In this document: positions 5,193 to 14,646 of the stretch, piece after piece | How the letters are laid out: each line of letters starts with the position of its first letter | How positions within the stretch are numbered: the stretch's first letter is position 1 | Origin: Pseudodesulfovibrio sp. JC047 | GTDB lineage: Bacteria > Desulfobacterota > Desulfovibrionia > Desulfovibrionales > Desulfovibrionaceae | Direction: 5' to 3' | Length of the DNA stretch: 64,000 nt | NCBI RefSeq assembly: GCF_010468615.1 | Contig: NZ_WUEH01000012.1 | Coordinates: forward strand, 1-64,000 | Notes under the pieces: generated by a model | The model's input: the letters and a program-made list of their open reading frames with translations, nothing else | Told to the model about the DNA's origin: nothing | The model's database searches: none | Program-made: the position numbers and the translations under genes

Positions 5193-5999
5193 ATGACTGT
5201 GAAGATTCGAGACCATTCAGTGCCTGCTTTTTTCCCGTATACACTGTGTCGGAAGATTGTGGATGAAATAGGGGAAATATTCCTTTTTTCCCTTGATTCG
5301 TTGCGGTTGATTTTTGCGGGACGAGGGCAGTTCTCCAAGATTATCCGTCAGATATATTTTATTGGAGTGCAATCTGTCAGTGTTATCGCCTTGATCGGAC
5401 TGTTTACGGGCATGGTCATGGGGATGCAGTTGTATTATGCCCTCTCCGTGTTCGGTGCTGATGGTTTTCTCGGGACGGGTGTCGCGTTGTCCATGGTGCG
5501 AGAGCTGGCTCCGGTGCTCACGGCGATCATGTTGACGGGGCGGGCCGGGTCCGCCATGACCGCTGAAATCGGGGTCATGCGAATTTCTGAACAGATTGAC
5601 GCTCTATCCATCATGGATATCAATCCCATGCGATATCTGGTGGCTCCCAAAATGGCCGCCTGTCTTATCAGTTTTCCAATTCTGACGGCTTTTTTCAATC
5701 TGATCGCCTTGTGGGGTGGATGGTTGACCGGGGTAAAATTGCTGGGGGCCAATGCCGGAGTGTACTGGTCGAGAGTGAATGGTGCTCTCAGTTGGGATGA
5801 TATTGAAGGCGGATTCATCAAGTCCATCGTTTTTGGCCTGCTCGTCTGTACCGTCTGTTGTTTTGAAGGATACTATACCCATATTCGTTCCGGTCATGCG
5901 GGACCGGAAGGAGTGAGCCAGTCCACCACTAATGCGGTGGTCAAATCCTGTGTGATAACCCTTGCGGCAGATTATGTTTTGACGTCGCTGCTTTGGTAG
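5193..5999 (+). CDS. mlaE: MlaE-type lipid ABC transporter permease
   Basis: A 268-residue inner-membrane permease of the MlaE/YrbE family, first gene of a complete mla operon that moves phospholipids between the inner and outer membranes. Around five hydrophobic segments are visible, with the family block VRELAPVLTAIMLTGRAGSAMTAEIG (positions about 105-130) followed by the EQIDALSIMDINP segment that meets the ATPase. It is preceded by a 165-base intergenic region that must hold the operon promoter, but I cannot pick a convincing one. The next gene starts within ten bases of its stop. Confidence 0.95.
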   Translation: MTVKIRDHSVPAFFPYTLCRKIVDEIGEIFLFSLDSLRLIFAGRGQFSKIIRQIYFIGVQSVSVIALIGLFTGMVMGMQLYYALSVFGADGFLGTGVALSMVRELAPVLTAIMLTGRAGSAMTAEIGVMRISEQIDALSIMDINPMRYLVAPKMAACLISFPILTAFFNLIALWGGWLTGVKLLGANAGVYWSRVNGALSWDDIEGGFIKSIVFGLLVCTVCCFEGYYTHIRSGHAGPEGVSQSTTNAVVKSCVITLAADYVLTSLLW

Positions 6000-6007
6000 A
6001 GGTCTTT

Positions 6008-6862
6008 GTGAGTAACGCACCCAGCATACGACTTGAAAATCTGGCTGTCGGCTATGGCGGCAGGCCTGTTGTCAGCGACCTGAATATCGAATTTCCCGGC
6101 GGGAAATTGTCCATGGTCGTTGGTGGCTCTGGATGCGGAAAATCCACATTGATTCGGCATATCCTGCAACTTCAGGCACCGATCAGCGGTAAAATTTATA
6201 TGGGCGGTCATGATCTCAGTTCCATTTCCGCCAAGAAACAACATTGTCTCAGACAACGAACAGGGGTGCTGTTTCAGGACGGTGCCATGTTGGGATCGTT
6301 GCGCCTCAAGGATAACATTGCTCTGCCCTTGCGGGAGCACACGAAACTCGGCGAAGCAGAAATTTTGCGGATTGTTCAGGATCGGCTGGAAATGGTCGGG
6401 CTTGGACATGCCATGGAATTATATCCCAATGAATTATCCGGGGGAATGCGCAAACGGGCCGGACTTGCCCGTGCGTTGGTCATGAACCCGCAGGTCTTGT
6501 TTTGCGATGAGCCGACATCCGGGCTGGACCCGATTTTGTCAGCGGAGCTGGATCAGTTGCTGCTCGACATGATGTGTCATTTCGACATGACCATGGTTGT
6601 TGTCACACACGATTTGGCAAGTATGCGTGCATTGGCCGATAATGTGGTCATTCTGGGAGAAAGAAAATGCCTGTATCAGGGCACGATCGAGCAGCTTGAG
6701 ACAACGGAAGATCCATATTTGCGGTGTTTTTTGGATAGAAAGGCCGAGGAGCGGACAGCCCCCAGGTTGACCATGACTCCTTTGGACCCGTCCATGCTGA
6801 AACGTGATTGTACAAAGATACTTGGCGAAAACATAACGATCCGAAAAGGTGACCGATGCTGA
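6008..6862 (+). CDS. mlaF: MlaF-type lipid ABC transporter ATPase
   Basis: An ABC ATPase of about 284 residues: Walker A GGSGCGKST at 39-47, signature LSGGMRKRAGLARAL, Walker B VLFCDEPTSGLDP and the switch His in VVVTHD. I place the start at GTG 6008, with AGAGG just upstream; a TTG at 5993 overlaps the mlaE stop and is the alternative. It powers lipid movement through MlaE. No mlaB (STAS-domain) gene, the usual fourth member of the E. coli inner-membrane complex, is found in this operon. Confidence 0.94.
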   Translation: MSNAPSIRLENLAVGYGGRPVVSDLNIEFPGGKLSMVVGGSGCGKSTLIRHILQLQAPISGKIYMGGHDLSSISAKKQHCLRQRTGVLFQDGAMLGSLRLKDNIALPLREHTKLGEAEILRIVQDRLEMVGLGHAMELYPNELSGGMRKRAGLARALVMNPQVLFCDEPTSGLDPILSAELDQLLLDMMCHFDMTMVVVTHDLASMRALADNVVILGERKCLYQGTIEQLETTEDPYLRCFLDRKAEERTAPRLTMTPLDPSMLKRDCTKILGENITIRKGDRC

Positions 6863-7302
6863 AAATGAAAAAAGAAACCGCAGTAGGGATTTTTGTGGTC
6901 ATGGGGTTGCTCGCCGTGGTCTACATGAGCATCAAGCTGGGTAACGTGCAGTTGTTCACGGATAAATATTATGAAGTGAAGGCCAATTTTTCGGATGTGT
7001 CCGGACTGAAGGTCAATGCGCCGATTCAGATGTTTGGTGTGGGGATCGGGTTTGTCAGGGAAATTCATATAGATCAGGACAAGGGCGTCGCGGCCATTTC
7101 CATGATGATCGACAAGAAGGTGACGTTGACGGACGATGCCATAGCTGCAATTAAGACAAGTGGACTTATCGGAGATAAGTTCGTGAAAATTGTGCCTGGT
7201 GGGCTTGGAGATCCTGTTCATGCCGGAGATACGCTGTTTGACACGCAGTCGGCTATAGACCTTGAAGATCTCATCAGTAAATTCGCCTTTGGCAATGTAT
7301 AA
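6856..7302 (+). CDS. mlaD: MlaD-type MCE-domain lipid-binding protein
   Basis: A 148-residue MCE-domain protein: one N-terminal membrane anchor (about residues 8-26), then the MCE fold with FSDVSGLKVNAPIQMFGVGIG and the KTSGLIGDKFVKI strand. It forms the periplasmic ring through which lipid passes in the Mla complex. It overlaps mlaF by seven bases. At 148 residues it is shorter than E. coli MlaD (183); the missing part is the C-terminal helical tail. Confidence 0.92.
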   Translation: MLKMKKETAVGIFVVMGLLAVVYMSIKLGNVQLFTDKYYEVKANFSDVSGLKVNAPIQMFGVGIGFVREIHIDQDKGVAAISMMIDKKVTLTDDAIAAIKTSGLIGDKFVKIVPGGLGDPVHAGDTLFDTQSAIDLEDLISKFAFGNV

Positions 7303-8805: not shown

Positions 8806-9285
8806 ATGAAAATCGCTGTTATCTCGGATACCCATATGGGGTCAGTCCCTGCGTGGCTTGACGATGTTTATTCCACATGGCTCGCGCCTGCGGATGTTCT
8901 TGTTCATTGTGGTGATATCACTTCTGTCGCGATCTGGTCCTACTTCATGCAGCACGACAATTTTGTGTGCGTTCGTGGGAACTGTGATTGGGACCCGCAA
9001 TTCGCCGATTTGCTCAAACCCATGACCTCTTTTGAACGGGACGGTCTCTCCGTGGGGGTGACACATGGTTGGGGACCTCGTTCCCATGTTCCGGTGACGG
9101 TTGCTCAAGCCTTTGGTCCCGAATATGACCTCGTCTGTTACGGTCATACCCATGCACGAGACTGGTCGATTGTCGAAGGTCTGCAATTGGTGAATCCTGG
9201 CTCTTTGGGTGAATCGGGTTCCCTTGCCCTGATCAGTATTGCGACCGATGGGACCATGCAATGTGAGTTCGTGGACGTTTTCTGA
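8806..9285 (+). CDS. YfcE/MJ0936-family phosphodiesterase
   Basis: A 159-residue calcineurin-like metallophosphoesterase with all metal motifs: ISDTHMG, HCGDI, RGNCD, THGW and CYGHTHAR. Small members of this family hydrolyse phosphodiester bonds, with Mn2+ usual. It follows mlaA after 21 bases on the same strand and may be the last gene of the mla transcript. The physiological substrate is unknown. Confidence 0.9.
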   Translation: MKIAVISDTHMGSVPAWLDDVYSTWLAPADVLVHCGDITSVAIWSYFMQHDNFVCVRGNCDWDPQFADLLKPMTSFERDGLSVGVTHGWGPRSHVPVTVAQAFGPEYDLVCYGHTHARDWSIVEGLQLVNPGSLGESGSLALISIATDGTMQCEFVDVF

Positions 9286-9422: not shown

Positions 9423-10667
9423 ATGAGCTTCACAATGCGCTGTGCGACAGCTGTTCTTCTTCTGCTCATGTCTCTGTTGTTTTCTGCTGTGCCGGTCAGA
9501 GCTGAAAATTCCCGTGAGTTGACTTTTGGCATGTCCGCAGCTTTTACCGGCGCGAATGGAGAACTCGGCATTGAGTTTTACCGCGGGTTCATGGCCTATA
9601 TTGATGCTTTCAATGCCGCTGGCGGCGCAGACGGATGGACGATCAAGGTTGTGCCAGCCAATGATGGGTATAATCCTGGCCCGTGTTTTCAGAATACCGT
9701 GCGCTTCATAAAGCAGGATGCAGTCTTCGCCCTGTTTTCCTATGTTGGAACACCGACCACTACCCATATTCTTCCTTTGCTACAAAAATTTGAAGATGAG
9801 AATATTTTCTTGCTCTTCCCTTTCAGCGGGTCGCAACCTTTGCGGACTGAACCTTTTGGTCAATATGTCTACAATCTTCGGGCATCGTATTTCGATGAAA
9901 CCCAGGGGCTGGTGGACCGCCTTGTCGCGATTGGGCGAAAAAGGATCGGTGTTTTTTATCAGAGCGATGCCTATGGTCGAACCGGCTGGGATGGAGTGCA
10001 TCGGGCCTTGGAACGACACGGTTTGTCCCTTGCGGGTGAAGCTGCGTACAAACGCGGTGCGTCTTTTTCCCAAGATTTTTCTTCCGAGGTGGAACTGTTG
10101 TTGAGCAGTGACCCGGATGCCATCATTGTCGTTGGGACCTATGCCTCTCAAGCCGCGTTTATCCGCGACGCGCGAAATTATGGGTATACGGATCCCATCG
10201 CGGGGTTGTCTTTTGCCGATAGCGACAAGATGCTCGAATTGCTCGTGGCCGAAGGGAAGCGGGTTTCAAAAAAGTACACCGGAAATCTGATCAATTCGCA
10301 GGTGGTCCCAAGTTATACGGACGAGCGGCTTCCCGGTGTGCGGCTGTATCGGAAGATCATGGAAGGGTATACCTATGAGCCGGTGGCCAGAAACGACGAG
10401 TATACGCCTAGAGTTTACAGTTATGTCAGCTTCGAAGGGTTTCTGAATGGCGTTATTCTGGGAGAAATGGTCAAACGGATGGCAGATGATCCTCGCCGGA
10501 CGCGGATTCCACAAGTCATGAATTCCATGCAGAATTTCGATTTGGGGATCGGTGTCAATGTGGATTTCAGCCGGAATGGTCATCAGGGGCTGGATACCGT
10601 GTATTTCACCACCGTCATCAATGGATTGTTTCAGTCTGTAGACGATTGGGAGCAGTGGCGACGATGA
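9423..10667 (+). CDS. orphan LivK-type periplasmic binding protein
   Basis: A type I periplasmic binding protein (Peripla_BP_6, LivK-like) of about 414 residues with a signal peptide (MRCATAVLLLLMSLLFSAVPVRA). Family signs are FGMSAAFTGANGELG at the mature N-terminus and FYQSDAYGRTGWDGV in the middle. ATG 9423 is chosen because it gives a normal signal peptide; 9360 and 9414 are alternatives and none has a strong ribosome binding site. No ABC permease or ATPase is nearby. Its stop overlaps the start of a PAS-GGDEF-EAL gene, so it is more likely a ligand sensor for that protein than part of a transporter. Confidence 0.85.
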   Translation: MSFTMRCATAVLLLLMSLLFSAVPVRAENSRELTFGMSAAFTGANGELGIEFYRGFMAYIDAFNAAGGADGWTIKVVPANDGYNPGPCFQNTVRFIKQDAVFALFSYVGTPTTTHILPLLQKFEDENIFLLFPFSGSQPLRTEPFGQYVYNLRASYFDETQGLVDRLVAIGRKRIGVFYQSDAYGRTGWDGVHRALERHGLSLAGEAAYKRGASFSQDFSSEVELLLSSDPDAIIVVGTYASQAAFIRDARNYGYTDPIAGLSFADSDKMLELLVAEGKRVSKKYTGNLINSQVVPSYTDERLPGVRLYRKIMEGYTYEPVARNDEYTPRVYSYVSFEGFLNGVILGEMVKRMADDPRRTRIPQVMNSMQNFDLGIGVNVDFSRNGHQGLDTVYFTTVINGLFQSVDDWEQWRR

Positions 10668-13237
10668 AGGCACCCAAACTTTTTATCAAGCCGCTGATTT
10701 TCATGGTGGTCGTCTTTGGGATGATCGCCTTGGTCACCTCTTTTACTTTCAGTACGCGCATCAAGCGGGAAATGACGCGGGAGTACGAATCCAAGGCCCT
10801 TTCCCTGGCCAGAAGTGTCGCGGAATCGGATATCTCGACGATCTTGAGCCAGGACGCCGGGTCGGTTCAGTCCCGGATTGATCAGTATCAGGCCATCGCC
10901 GGGGTTTCCTATGTACTGGTGGCGGACGAAGAAGGGACCGTCCTCGCGCACACCTTTGTCCCGATTGTGCCGGAAGCCGTCCTGCATATGGTTGTCGAGA
11001 CGTCCTATCAGCGCAACCGGGAAGAGCACATTATTCGGGATGTGGAACTGAGTGGCGAACGATTTCTGCATGTGACCAGCCCAATTTTGACCGGCATTGC
11101 CGGATACGTGCATATCGGCATGGACATGGCGGTGATCCAGCAGAATATTCAGGAAGCAGTGGTTGAACAACAGCTTGTCATGCTTGTCCTTTTTGTGGGC
11201 AGTGTGCTGTTGGCATTCGTCTTTGTCCTGAATATTTCCAAACCATTGACCCAGTTGTCAGAGTACGCCGGGCGTGTGGCGGTCAAGGATTTCACCAATG
11301 TGCCGGATATCAAATCCAATGATGAAGTCGGCCAATTGGCCCGTGCCATGAATGCCATGACGGGTCAGATTTCGGAACTGGTCGGGAATTTGGAAGACCG
11401 GGTTCTGGAAAAAACGCACCAGCTCCAGGAGGCTCGGGACGCCTTGAAGCAGAAGGTCGAGGAACGAACGTGCGAATTGATGCGGACCAATACCCAGTTG
11501 AAGATCGAGATCGCCGAGCGAAAGGTGATTGGGGACGCGCTGCGCAAGGCTGAAAAAAAATATCGCGCTATCTTCGAGAACGCTGTGGAAGGAATTTATC
11601 AATCGTCGCCCAGCGGTCGTTTTCAGGACACGAATCCTGCACTCGCTCGAATCCTCGGCTACAATTCGCCCGAAGACCTCATGAGTTCCATCTACGACAT
11701 CGGCACACAGATGTATGTGGACCCGAATCGCCGCAAGGAATTTTTGAAACTGCTTGAGGGTAAGGACGAGATCAAGAATTTTATTTCCAAGGTTCGTAAA
11801 AGGGATGGGCGGATTATTTGGGTGGCGGAAAATGTTCGCAAGATTGTGGATGGCGACGGGCATGTGGTTTGCTATGAGGGGTCCATCGAAGACATCACCA
11901 TGCGTAAGAAAGCCGAAGATCAGTTGAAACGTCAGGCCTTTCATGATCCGTTGACGGGACTACCCAACCGTGCGCTTTTTTTGGATCATTTGCGAATGGC
12001 CATGGAACGGTCCCGCCGCCGCAAGCATATGTTCGCGGTGTTGTATATGGATCTCGATCGGTTCAAGGTGGTCAATGATTCTCTGGGGCATGATGCCGGG
12101 GACGAATTGTTGTGCGGCGTGGCTCGTGTGCTGGAAAATTGTGGCCGATCCGTGGATACCGTCGCTCGTTTCGGCGGCGATGAATTTGCTATTTTGCAGG
12201 AAGAGATATCCGCGCCAAAGGATGCCATTGCCATTGCCCGCCGTATTCTCGAAGGTGTGCGACAGCCGTTCAATATCGGTGGGAACGAGGTCTTTACGTC
12301 GGCGTCACTTGGTATTGTCCTCAAAACCGATGGGTACGACCGGCCCGAAGCCCTGTTGCGAGATGCCGATACCGCCATGTATCGGGCAAAGGAACTGGGA
12401 AAATCCCGATTCAAGGTCTTTAACCGCAAAATGCACGATCAGGCTTTGCAGCTCATGGAGCTGGAAACAGATCTTCGTCGGGCCGTGGACCTTCGTGAAT
12501 TCGAAGTGTACTATCAGCCGATCGTTCAATTGGATAAACGCCGGGTGTGCGGCTTCGAAGCGTTGGTCCGCTGGCGGCATCCCGTGCACGGCATTATTGG
12601 CCCGGTGGATTTTGTTTCCTTGGCTGAGGATACCGGGTTAATCTATTCCATTGATAATTTAGTCCTTGAAGAAGCGTGCGCTCAAGTCAAACGTTGGCAG
12701 ACCGTGGCAAAGGTCGAGTCCGGTCGGGATCTGACGATTAACATCAATATTTCAGGCAAACACTTCGGCCACTCCATGCTGGGCGGACAGGTGGCGCGCG
12801 CTTTGGAAGACTCCGGACTCGGACCGGAGTCGCTCAATATCGAAATCACTGAATCAGCCCTGATGGACAATCCCACGGTGGCGGAAGAGATGTTGCAACA
12901 ACTCAAAGACTTGGGTGTCAGCATTTGCATTGATGACTTCGGGACAGGGTATTCTTCACTTTCCTATTTGCAGCGATTCCCCATTGATGTGGTCAAGGTT
13001 GATCGGAGTTTCGTGATCGATGTCGAGACGGACGCGGACAGTCAGGCCATTGTCCGAACCGTGTTTTCCCTGGGTGAGTCCATGCGACTCAAGATCGTTG
13101 CCGAGGGTGTCGAGACATCCGGGCAACTTGAGTTCTTGGAAAACGAAGGATGCAAGTTCGTGCAGGGGTATTTCTTTTATAAACCCATGACGGTGGAAGC
13201 CGTGGATCGATTACTGGCTGGCACTGTCGGAGCGTGA
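10664..13237 (+). CDS. membrane PAS-GGDEF-EAL cyclic-di-GMP protein
   Basis: An 857-residue protein, in order: transmembrane helix (about 8-28), periplasmic domain (30-165), second helix (170-190), HAMP (190-245), coiled coil (245-290), PAS (295-415), GGDEF (420-585) and EAL (600-850). The cyclase active site GGDEF is intact, and an RxxD inhibitory site (RSVD) sits five residues before it. The phosphodiesterase side has EALVRW, DDFGTGYSSL and EGVET, so both activities are possible. It starts at ATG 10664 in an ATGA overlap with the binding-protein gene. The periplasmic domain probably receives the signal. Confidence 0.94.
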   Translation: MKAPKLFIKPLIFMVVVFGMIALVTSFTFSTRIKREMTREYESKALSLARSVAESDISTILSQDAGSVQSRIDQYQAIAGVSYVLVADEEGTVLAHTFVPIVPEAVLHMVVETSYQRNREEHIIRDVELSGERFLHVTSPILTGIAGYVHIGMDMAVIQQNIQEAVVEQQLVMLVLFVGSVLLAFVFVLNISKPLTQLSEYAGRVAVKDFTNVPDIKSNDEVGQLARAMNAMTGQISELVGNLEDRVLEKTHQLQEARDALKQKVEERTCELMRTNTQLKIEIAERKVIGDALRKAEKKYRAIFENAVEGIYQSSPSGRFQDTNPALARILGYNSPEDLMSSIYDIGTQMYVDPNRRKEFLKLLEGKDEIKNFISKVRKRDGRIIWVAENVRKIVDGDGHVVCYEGSIEDITMRKKAEDQLKRQAFHDPLTGLPNRALFLDHLRMAMERSRRRKHMFAVLYMDLDRFKVVNDSLGHDAGDELLCGVARVLENCGRSVDTVARFGGDEFAILQEEISAPKDAIAIARRILEGVRQPFNIGGNEVFTSASLGIVLKTDGYDRPEALLRDADTAMYRAKELGKSRFKVFNRKMHDQALQLMELETDLRRAVDLREFEVYYQPIVQLDKRRVCGFEALVRWRHPVHGIIGPVDFVSLAEDTGLIYSIDNLVLEEACAQVKRWQTVAKVESGRDLTININISGKHFGHSMLGGQVARALEDSGLGPESLNIEITESALMDNPTVAEEMLQQLKDLGVSICIDDFGTGYSSLSYLQRFPIDVVKVDRSFVIDVETDADSQAIVRTVFSLGESMRLKIVAEGVETSGQLEFLENEGCKFVQGYFFYKPMTVEAVDRLLAGTVGA

Positions 13238-13275: not shown

Positions 13276-14646
13276 ATGACCATCAGGCAACGTCTGACGT
13301 GTGGCTTGGAACCCATTGAACAGGTGCTTTTACCATTTCAGGCCTTTTTCAAGTCCAAGACAACAGGCGGTATCCTGTTGATTATAAGTGCCGTTGCCGC
13401 GCTTGTCTGGGCCAATTCTCCGTGGTCCGATACGTATTTCGCCTTGCGGGATACCAGCTTTACCGTTGGTTTCGGTCAGGCCTCTCTGTCAAAGCCGGTT
13501 GTGCTGTGGGTCAATGACGGGCTGATGGCTCTGTTCTTTTTTGTTGTCGGACTTGAGATCAAGCGGGAATTTTTGGTGGGGGAACTGTCTTCCCGCAGTC
13601 AGGCTGTCCTGCCTATAGCTGCTGCACTTGGCGGTATGATTGTCCCTGTGCTGGTGTATGTGCTGGTCAATTGGGGCACGGAATCCGCCAGAGGATGGGG
13701 AATCCCCATGGCGACCGACATTGCATTTGCCCTTGGTATTCTCAGCCTTCTCGGCGATCGTGTTCCATTTCAGTTGAAGATATTTTTGACCGCTGTCGCC
13801 ATTGTAGACGATCTCGGCGGTATCCTCGTGATTGCATTTTTTTATACCGCCGATATCTCTTTTGGTCTTCTCATGGCAGCCGGCGGGTTGCTTCTTGTGG
13901 CCTTTGTGGGAAATCGTCTGGGAATACGATCGCCGGCATTTTATGCGATCGTGGGGCTTCTGGTATGGTTGACGGTCTTGAAATCCGGTGTGCATTCCAC
14001 GGTTGCCGGTGTGCTCATGGCTTTCATGATTCCGGCCCGGACCCGATGTGACGCGTCCGCCTTTGTCCAGAATGCAACTGATGTGCTGGAAGAGTACAAG
14101 GGAGCGATGCGACCGGGGACGTCTGTCCTGACCAATTCCTCAATGCTTTCGGCCCTGCTGTCCATGCAATACGTCACCTCCCGATCACAAACTCCGTTGC
14201 AACGATTGGAACATGGGCTGCACCCGTTGGTTGATTTCGCGGTCATGCCGCTCTTTGCCCTGGCCAATGCCGGCGTGGTTTTTGGCGGTGACATGGGAGC
14301 CGTGATGTCCAGTCCCGTTGCTGTGGGGACCGCATTGGGGCTGGTTGTCGGCAAACCTCTCGGGATTGTCGGTGCTGTCCTGCTGATCTTCTGGATTTCC
14401 GGCGGTGTGCCTCGCGGCGTCCATATACGACATTTTATCGGGATCGGATTGCTCGGCGGCATCGGCTTCACCATGTCCCTGTTTATCGCGACGCTGGTTT
14501 TTGGGGACGCTCCCCTCTTGTTGACCGGTGCCAAGACAGCCGTTTTTGGAGCCTCTGTGGTGGCGGGCATTGCCGGATATTTTGTTCTGCGCAGTGCGCC
14601 AACCGTCGAGGAGTTGCTCTCGGGAGAGACTTCTCAACACGACTGA
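13276..14646 (+). CDS. nhaA: Na+/H+ antiporter NhaA
   Basis: A 456-residue NhaA with about twelve membrane segments. Key signs are VNDGLMALFFFVVGLEIKRE, ATDIAFALGIL and the ion-binding Asp pair in AVAIVDDLGGI. It exports Na+ or Li+ in exchange for protons and helps with salt and alkaline pH. The start at 13276 has GGGAG upstream. It is longer than E. coli NhaA (388); the extra length is mainly a soluble segment between membrane halves (around ARTRCDASAFVQNATDVLEE) and a C-terminal tail. Confidence 0.95.
   Translation: MTIRQRLTCGLEPIEQVLLPFQAFFKSKTTGGILLIISAVAALVWANSPWSDTYFALRDTSFTVGFGQASLSKPVVLWVNDGLMALFFFVVGLEIKREFLVGELSSRSQAVLPIAAALGGMIVPVLVYVLVNWGTESARGWGIPMATDIAFALGILSLLGDRVPFQLKIFLTAVAIVDDLGGILVIAFFYTADISFGLLMAAGGLLLVAFVGNRLGIRSPAFYAIVGLLVWLTVLKSGVHSTVAGVLMAFMIPARTRCDASAFVQNATDVLEEYKGAMRPGTSVLTNSSMLSALLSMQYVTSRSQTPLQRLEHGLHPLVDFAVMPLFALANAGVVFGGDMGAVMSSPVAVGTALGLVVGKPLGIVGAVLLIFWISGGVPRGVHIRHFIGIGLLGGIGFTMSLFIATLVFGDAPLLLTGAKTAVFGASVVAGIAGYFVLRSAPTVEELLSGETSQHD

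Follow-up and report, generated by a model that had tools for sequence, protein, structure and literature searches.

A LivK-type binding protein and an sCache GGDEF-EAL receptor encoded by overlapping genes: a probable two-part sensor in Pseudodesulfovibrio

Organization of the binding protein–receptor locus

The window analyzed here, a 64,000-nucleotide stretch of contig NZ_WUEH01000012.1 from Pseudodesulfovibrio sp. JC047, carries two overlapping genes that encode a LivK-type periplasmic binding protein and a membrane receptor with GGDEF and EAL domains (Table 1). An earlier note on this DNA had proposed that the two form a sensor, in which a ligand bound in the periplasm is passed to the control of cyclic di-GMP (c-di-GMP). 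Its description of the genes is borne out: the family of the binding protein and the overlap of its stop with the receptor start, a periplasmic receptor domain of about 130 residues, and an intact GGDEF domain with its RxxD site followed by an intact EAL domain are all recovered.

Table 1. Features of the binding protein–receptor locus and neighboring genes (window coordinates)
Feature	Position	Strand	Basis
Lipid-type Mla set (MlaE, ABC ATPase, own MlaD)	5193..7302		
YfcE gene	8806..9285		
Peripla_BP_6 (LivK-type) binding protein, 414 amino acids	9423..10667	+	Pfam PF13458, E=6.9e-41
Signal peptide (predicted)	9423..9503	+	sequence read by eye
ATGA stop/start overlap	10664..10667	+	receptor ATG at 10664, binding-protein stop TGA at 10665-10667
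Membrane receptor sCache-HAMP-PAS-GGDEF-EAL, 857 amino acids	10664..13237	+	Pfam
Periplasmic sCache_3_2 ectodomain (residues 31-165)	10754..11158	+	PF17203, 9.2e-13, 48.9 bits against a cut-off of 28.4
GGDEF domain (residues 425-581), RSVD-TVARF-GGDEF	11936..12406	+	PF00990, 5.4e-48; motif
EAL domain (residues 603-841)	12470..13186	+	PF00563, 8.8e-74; motif
NhaA gene	13276..14646		

The N-terminus of the binding protein, MSFTMRCATAVLLLLMSLLFSAVPVRA, reads by eye as a signal peptide. Its AlphaFold model adopts the fold of a type I periplasmic binding protein, with the best match to 3lop (Z 28.1, root-mean-square deviation (rmsd) 3.3, 342 residues aligned), and 4kv7 and 3lop are also its closest solved sequences. 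The models of binding protein and receptor are single chains with 5 close sequences per alignment, and both reach middling confidence, with a mean predicted local distance difference test (pLDDT) of 71.8 and 71.6. Among the cassettes of binding protein and sCache receptor collected from relatives (see below), ATGA or GTGA stands at the binding-protein stop in 65 of 80, including 35 of the 38 with a GGDEF-EAL output, counts that refer to the binding-protein stop and not to each receptor start.

In the receptor, Pfam places sCache_3_2 at residues 34–166, HAMP at 188–237 and PAS at 299–404, followed by the two output domains. The model shows long helices at residues 8–54 and 155–206 that flank an ectodomain of mixed structure, about 135 residues long. 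At the output end, the GGDEF motif, an RxxD inhibitory site 5 residues upstream of it, the EAL motif and a DDFG motif are all present, and all 42 of the GGDEF-EAL receptors compared keep GGDEF, RxxD, DDFG and E[AV]L, which reads EAL in 40 and EVL in 2. The receptor has the motifs of a bifunctional cyclase and phosphodiesterase, and both activities are predicted.

A search of the PDB by sequence with the ectodomain alone returned no match up to E=10, and the fold matches come from the model only. The top rows are the integrative models 9a5d (WalK–YycH, Z 12.8) and 9a65 (Z 10.5), together with CHASE4 domains (Z about 10). Below these stand LuxQ 3c30 (Z 9.6, rmsd 4.2, 146 aligned), DcuS 3by8 (Z 9.5, rmsd 3.4, 121 aligned), LuxQ in its LuxP complex, 2hj9 chain D (Z 9.1, rmsd 3.0, 120 aligned), and CitA 2j80 (Z 8.1, rmsd 4.1, 120 aligned). 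The modeled likeness to LuxQ, on which the binding protein LuxP docks, would count in favor of a two-part sensor; being a Cache-type sensor fold, the ectodomain could also have a ligand of its own.

Conserved pairing across relatives

The co-occurrence of the two families, which the earlier note had named as a check, was followed through 98 related genomes. Binding-protein matches were accepted at E<=0.001, ectodomain matches were called strong at >=80 bits, and a pair was counted where an ectodomain match lies directly after a binding-protein match with a gap of -120 to 400 bases. Binding proteins were sorted into the window type (BP1), the type of a histidine-kinase cassette (BP2) and a further type of the same family (BP3). 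Counts of binding-protein and ectodomain matches here and below are counts among the matches listed, so that weak matches are undercounted. Gene calling at the relatives' loci can be led astray by antisense open reading frames, and sequencing errors may account for the frameshifts at two loci (L081 and L121).

Binding-protein matches, ABC (ATP-binding cassette)-type relatives included, occur in 87 of the 98 genomes and ectodomain matches in 77. Of the 83 strong ectodomain matches, 77 lie directly after a binding-protein match; the six unpaired ones comprise one whose binding protein is truncated where its contig stops (L106) and five without a binding protein (L101–L105). Viewed from the other gene, 78 of the 79 best binding-protein rows, which include two partial binding proteins (genomes G010 and G032), directly precede an ectodomain, the exception being genome G044, where binding protein and receptor stand apart. 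Weak ectodomain rows (32–45 bits) follow a binding-protein row in 30 of 67 cases. Because the pairing recurs across the family, the adjacency of binding protein and receptor is not due to chance, and the refuting outcome that the note had named, no conserved pairing in relatives, is rejected. A scan of GTDB contigs confirmed four close relatives and no more, and a plasmid search with the DNA of the pair gave no match.

Two further arrangements were seen at individual loci. In G044 (L073, contig C2) a glycoside hydrolase family 3 gene comes directly after the binding-protein gene, and the GGDEF-EAL receptor of that genome lies about 134 kb off on the same contig. One of the weak ectodomain rows that follow no binding-protein row lies in the window's own genome (L107, G000:C3, 4056–7087, minus strand); this kinase, whose sCache ectodomain is similar, has a binding protein of the Phosphonate-bd family (PF12974) 11 bases upstream, which places a second class of binding protein on the sCache receptor type within the same genome.

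One front end joined to several outputs

Analysis of the next gene in 108 binding-protein-bearing rows reveals an sCache ectodomain gene in 80 (three reference types), 3 Liv loci and 25 other arrangements. The outputs of the 80 cassettes are GGDEF-EAL in 38, a kinase in 38 and a sigma-54 activator in 2, while the remaining 2 receptors are frameshifted or run off a contig end. Specifically, GGDEF-EAL proteins, histidine kinases, hybrid kinases with a receiver and a kinase with receivers and Hpt (L084) are found behind binding protein and sCache; the two sigma-54 activators (L122, L123) carry sCache, HAMP and four PAS domains, end in Sigma54_activat and HTH_8, and are paired with the same binding-protein family. 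The 25 other rows consist of the glycosidase neighbor described above, a binding-protein fragment (L081) and, from distant relatives, 23 rows in which a kinase comes next in 10 by reference domains and in one more by Pfam (L134, a kinase with a dCache_2 ectodomain), a chemoreceptor comes next in three (L131, L136, L144), and at L148 a chemoreceptor follows after one small gene. In a search of the phylum at E<=1e-30, such distant binding-protein relatives occur in 48 of 395 genomes, the window's own included.

A tree of 76 binding proteins (38 with GGDEF-EAL, 35 with a kinase, 2 with sigma-54 and 1 with a frameshifted receptor) shows at least 4 output changes, against a mean of 27.4 after shuffling and with 0 of 200 shuffles as low, a degree of clustering that near-copies inflate. 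Apart from L085, the GGDEF-EAL rows fall in one 38-row set (support 86, not starred) that includes the frameshifted row. Tree and gene order together indicate that binding protein and ectodomain stayed together while the output changed. Since histidine kinases, hybrid kinases and sigma-54 activators also stand behind the same front end, it looks like a portable sensing unit, and this supports a two-part sensor.

The window's genome holds two further cassettes of binding protein and sCache (L037 and L038, both on contig C4), each with a histidine-kinase output, and the kinase gene of L038 overlaps a response regulator gene. At L108, L109 and L130, open reading frames of 765–774 residues contain two tandem BP3 domains, with sCache receptor genes next in L108 and L109. 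Additionally, a molybdopterin oxidoreductase motif is found in the fetched flanks of 11 of 37 BP3 rows against 0 of 68 BP1 and BP2 rows; the rows with such an enzyme nearby are L038, L112, L115, L133, L134, L135, L138, L141, L143, L147, L150 and L151, and Pfam confirms the family both in L115 and in L038, a row that had escaped the motif. The oxidoreductase near BP3 cassettes is probably formate dehydrogenase.

Neighboring genes and ABC partners

The pair is flanked by the YfcE gene upstream and the NhaA gene downstream, and no ABC gene adjoins the binding protein, nor does a LivH-type permease stand beside it. The protein fits the Peripla_BP_6 ABC transport class (LivJ/LivK) by family and fold, not by an adjacent LivH-type permease. 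Of the ABC genes in the window, the nearest are MlaE and an ABC ATPase >2 kb upstream, both from a lipid-type Mla set that has its own MlaD; as the fetched flanks of several orthologous pairs (e.g. L068–L072) yielded no Mla genes, this set is no fixed partner of the binding protein. Unlike the window protein, three other binding proteins of the genome (L039–L041) are each followed by a LivH-type gene, as Pfam confirms for L040. The genome contains 12 BPD_transp_2 matches, of which 6 lie by position beside these three loci and the other 6 on contigs C4, C8, C18 and C27. Near the relatives examined, Liv-type ABC genes appear only at 31–32% binding-protein identity, as a LivH stretch at L142 and a branched-chain-type ATPase at L140. 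Among the adjoining genes and the permease matches beside L039–L041, the check for a dedicated permease found none for the window binding protein and does not refute the two-part reading.

Ligand of the binding protein

The amino-acid-like ligand that had been proposed finds no such backing. At one aligned position, compared by eye, 3 of 3 LivH-linked binding proteins of the genome have Asp and 28 of 28 signaling-clade rows have Ser. The acidic position corresponding to this Asp presumably contacts the alpha-amino group of the ligand in the E. coli LIV-binding protein. Because the Asp of the LivH-linked proteins is Ser throughout the signaling clade, an amino-acid ligand is not supported, and the ligand may belong to another class. 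According to their structure titles, solved proteins of related fold contain amino acids, 2-oxo acids, aromatic acids and amides.

Proposed two-part sensing and alternative explanations

We consider it probable that both genes encode one two-part sensor, composed of the binding protein and the sCache GGDEF-EAL receptor. The conserved pairing, the joint inheritance of binding protein and ectodomain across outputs and the lack of an adjoining ABC gene uphold this part of the earlier proposal, which is qualified by the 5 of 35 genomes of the genus that keep the receptor with no intact binding protein next to it. In the proposed mechanism, the binding protein, whose fold and family suit the task and which is predicted to be secreted, would catch a small ligand in the periplasm, and the liganded protein would dock on the sCache ectodomain of a receptor dimer. 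Docking would shift the two transmembrane helices, and the change, relayed by HAMP and then PAS, may tune synthesis by GGDEF against hydrolysis by EAL, such that ligand concentration would set c-di-GMP. The 4-base overlap presumably keeps synthesis of the two proteins coupled. By gene order and domains, binding protein and ectodomain appear as a portable input module with at least three kinds of output in the phylum, and the locus thereby belongs to a natural series with a constant input and exchanged outputs.

Several observations weigh against this interpretation. Of a same-genus sample of 36 genomes, 35 have a GGDEF-EAL receptor; 30 of these 35 hold an intact adjacent binding protein and 5 do not. 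In G013, G016 and G020 (L104, L105 and L102, respectively) no binding protein lies between a SpoU-type methylase gene and the receptor, the interval in which one is present in L068–L072, L121 and L126, and among the matches listed none elsewhere in these three genomes is closer than the binding protein of their kinase cassette. The binding protein of G010 matches residues 110–414 only, that of G032 is split over two frames, and both receptors are intact. Since the receptor persists in these five genomes with no intact binding protein beside it, the binding protein is not indispensable at the locus. Such natural losses, with the receptor left in place, make the need for the binding protein directly testable. 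Two cases of neighboring solute-binding protein (SBP) and kinase in Pseudomonas aeruginosa are reported to lack detectable binding (PMC11113362), so gene adjacency alone is no proof.

The receptors without a binding protein also bear on constraint. When 42 receptors are ranked by ectodomain divergence relative to the output, L104 and L105 come out as the most diverged, with residuals of -0.089 and -0.085, compared with a standard deviation of 0.022 and a minimum of -0.061 among 38 paired rows, a set that includes the broken binding proteins of L079 and L081. Elsewhere in the same two receptors the residuals are 0.033 and 0.025 for PAS and -0.029 and -0.022 for HAMP. This drift is suggestive of relaxed constraint after loss of the binding protein in one lineage, perhaps in one event. 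On the opposing side, L104 and L105 also show that the receptor survives without a binding protein, and the likewise unpaired L102 (-0.007) and L103 are without ectodomain drift. In 36 GGDEF-EAL pairs, the partial distance correlation of binding protein and ectodomain given GGDEF and EAL is r=0.40 (p=0.0005); under the same controls the binding protein correlates with PAS at 0.04, with the first and second transmembrane helices at 0.10 and -0.02, and weakly with HAMP at 0.12 (p=0.06). The correlation of binding protein and EAL given GGDEF, PAS and ectodomain is r=0.44 (p=0.0005). Because it is equally high under other controls, the coevolution signal is not ectodomain-specific, and coevolution as proof of contact between binding protein and ectodomain was given little weight.

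A wider proposal is that LivK-type binding protein and sCache form a phylum-wide plug-in sensing module that would drive phosphorelay kinases, c-di-GMP enzymes and sigma-54 activators built as membrane receptors, and that the binding proteins of sister cassettes act in trans on receptors that have lost their own. We regard it as doubtful; if true, several signaling systems of a cell would respond to one ligand.

Direct sensing is an unlikely alternative, in which the receptor would respond to a ligand through its own sCache domain and the binding protein would be a dispensable helper, for instance in ligand delivery or buffering. The ectodomain fold is that of the direct ligand sensors DcuS and CitA, and the five genomes lacking an intact adjacent binding protein agree with such a role; the intact one in 30 of 35 genomes, the pairing kept across swapped outputs and an ectodomain divergence in L104 and L105 that outpaces the rest of the receptor all argue in the other direction. 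It is similarly improbable that BP2 of the histidine-kinase cassette drives the GGDEF-EAL receptor in trans, although this would explain the survival of receptors without their own binding protein, and 5 of 5 such same-genus genomes hold a BP2 cassette. BP2 is present in 25 of 36 same-genus genomes among the matches listed, which gives 5 of 5 by chance about 1 time in 7 (0.14, not significant), and the window binding protein is only 43–48% identical to the BP2 proteins of the genus. That the binding protein is an ordinary transport protein served by a permease encoded elsewhere, the overlap merely coupling expression, is very unlikely: six BPD_transp_2 matches do lie away from L039–L041 and SBP genes apart from transporter genes are reported (PMC9602780), but an sCache receptor comes next in 80 of 105 binding-protein rows outside the three Liv loci, the pocket residue differs from that of the three LivH-linked proteins, and Liv-type ABC genes accompany only rows as distant as L142 and L140.

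The c-di-GMP control of sulfate reducers, in which the pair would take part, is reported to bear on biofilm formation and metal corrosion.

Comparison with known systems

LuxP–LuxQ resembles the window pair in that a periplasmic binding protein is docked on a PAS/Cache-like ectodomain, and the window ectodomain model matches LuxQ, at 8–10% identity over the aligned part. LuxQ differs in being a kinase, and its ectodomain is larger than that of the window receptor. ScrB–ScrC of Vibrio parahaemolyticus, which we take to be a pair of SBP and GGDEF-EAL sensor like the window pair, presumably differs from it in SBP class and ligand source.

In NspS–MbaA of Vibrio cholerae, as in the proposed pair, a periplasmic binding protein controls a membrane GGDEF-EAL protein (PMC8967002). 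The window locus shows both features of that type, an SBP gene adjoining the receptor without adjoining transporter genes and a pairing kept beyond the genome. Association of NspS is reported to favor the cyclase activity of MbaA (PMC8967002), and, as points of difference, NspS has polyamines as its ligands and is reported to signal without a role in transport; the type is reported for Sinorhizobium meliloti too. The window pair is further set apart by a binding protein of Peripla_BP_6, an ectodomain of sCache_3_2 and outputs that are swapped among relatives.

Dret_0059 of the sulfate reducer Desulfohalobium retbaense is reported to carry an SBP together with a tandem PAS-like sensor on a single chain (Wu 2017, per PMC8694187). 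The window ectodomain model matches residues 352–507 of its structure (PDB 5ere; Z 8.4, rmsd 4.0, 146 aligned), and Dret_0059 is not among the PDB sequence matches of the window binding protein at E<=0.01. It differs in being a single polypeptide with a tandem (dCache) sensor, whereas the window pair consists of two proteins. RsbQ–RsbP, an alpha/beta hydrolase with a PAS protein, is likewise described as a bipartite sensing module with diverse output domains, its partner being a hydrolase and not a periplasmic binding protein (PMC3183031).

The action of SBPs on kinases, chemoreceptors and cyclases or phosphodiesterases has been reviewed (PMC9602780, PMC11113362), with Trimble and McCarter 2011 cited there for SBP-driven cyclase/phosphodiesterase receptors. 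In these papers, 10 of 11 characterized SBP–kinase couples are said to be gene neighbors, and SBP-driven receptors are thought widespread with few characterized, about 10 SBP–kinase examples being given (PMC9602780). Within the excerpt of a review of c-di-GMP inputs, SBP_bac_3 is the sole periplasmic-binding domain family named as studied in such networks (PMC8846402). No description of a pair of Peripla_BP_6, sCache and GGDEF-EAL was found in the open-licence PubMed Central literature, searched mostly by titles and abstracts. SBP-driven control of a GGDEF-EAL protein is already known from NspS–MbaA; new here is the combination of a LivK-type binding protein with an sCache ectodomain, in a conserved overlapping gene pair with interchangeable outputs.

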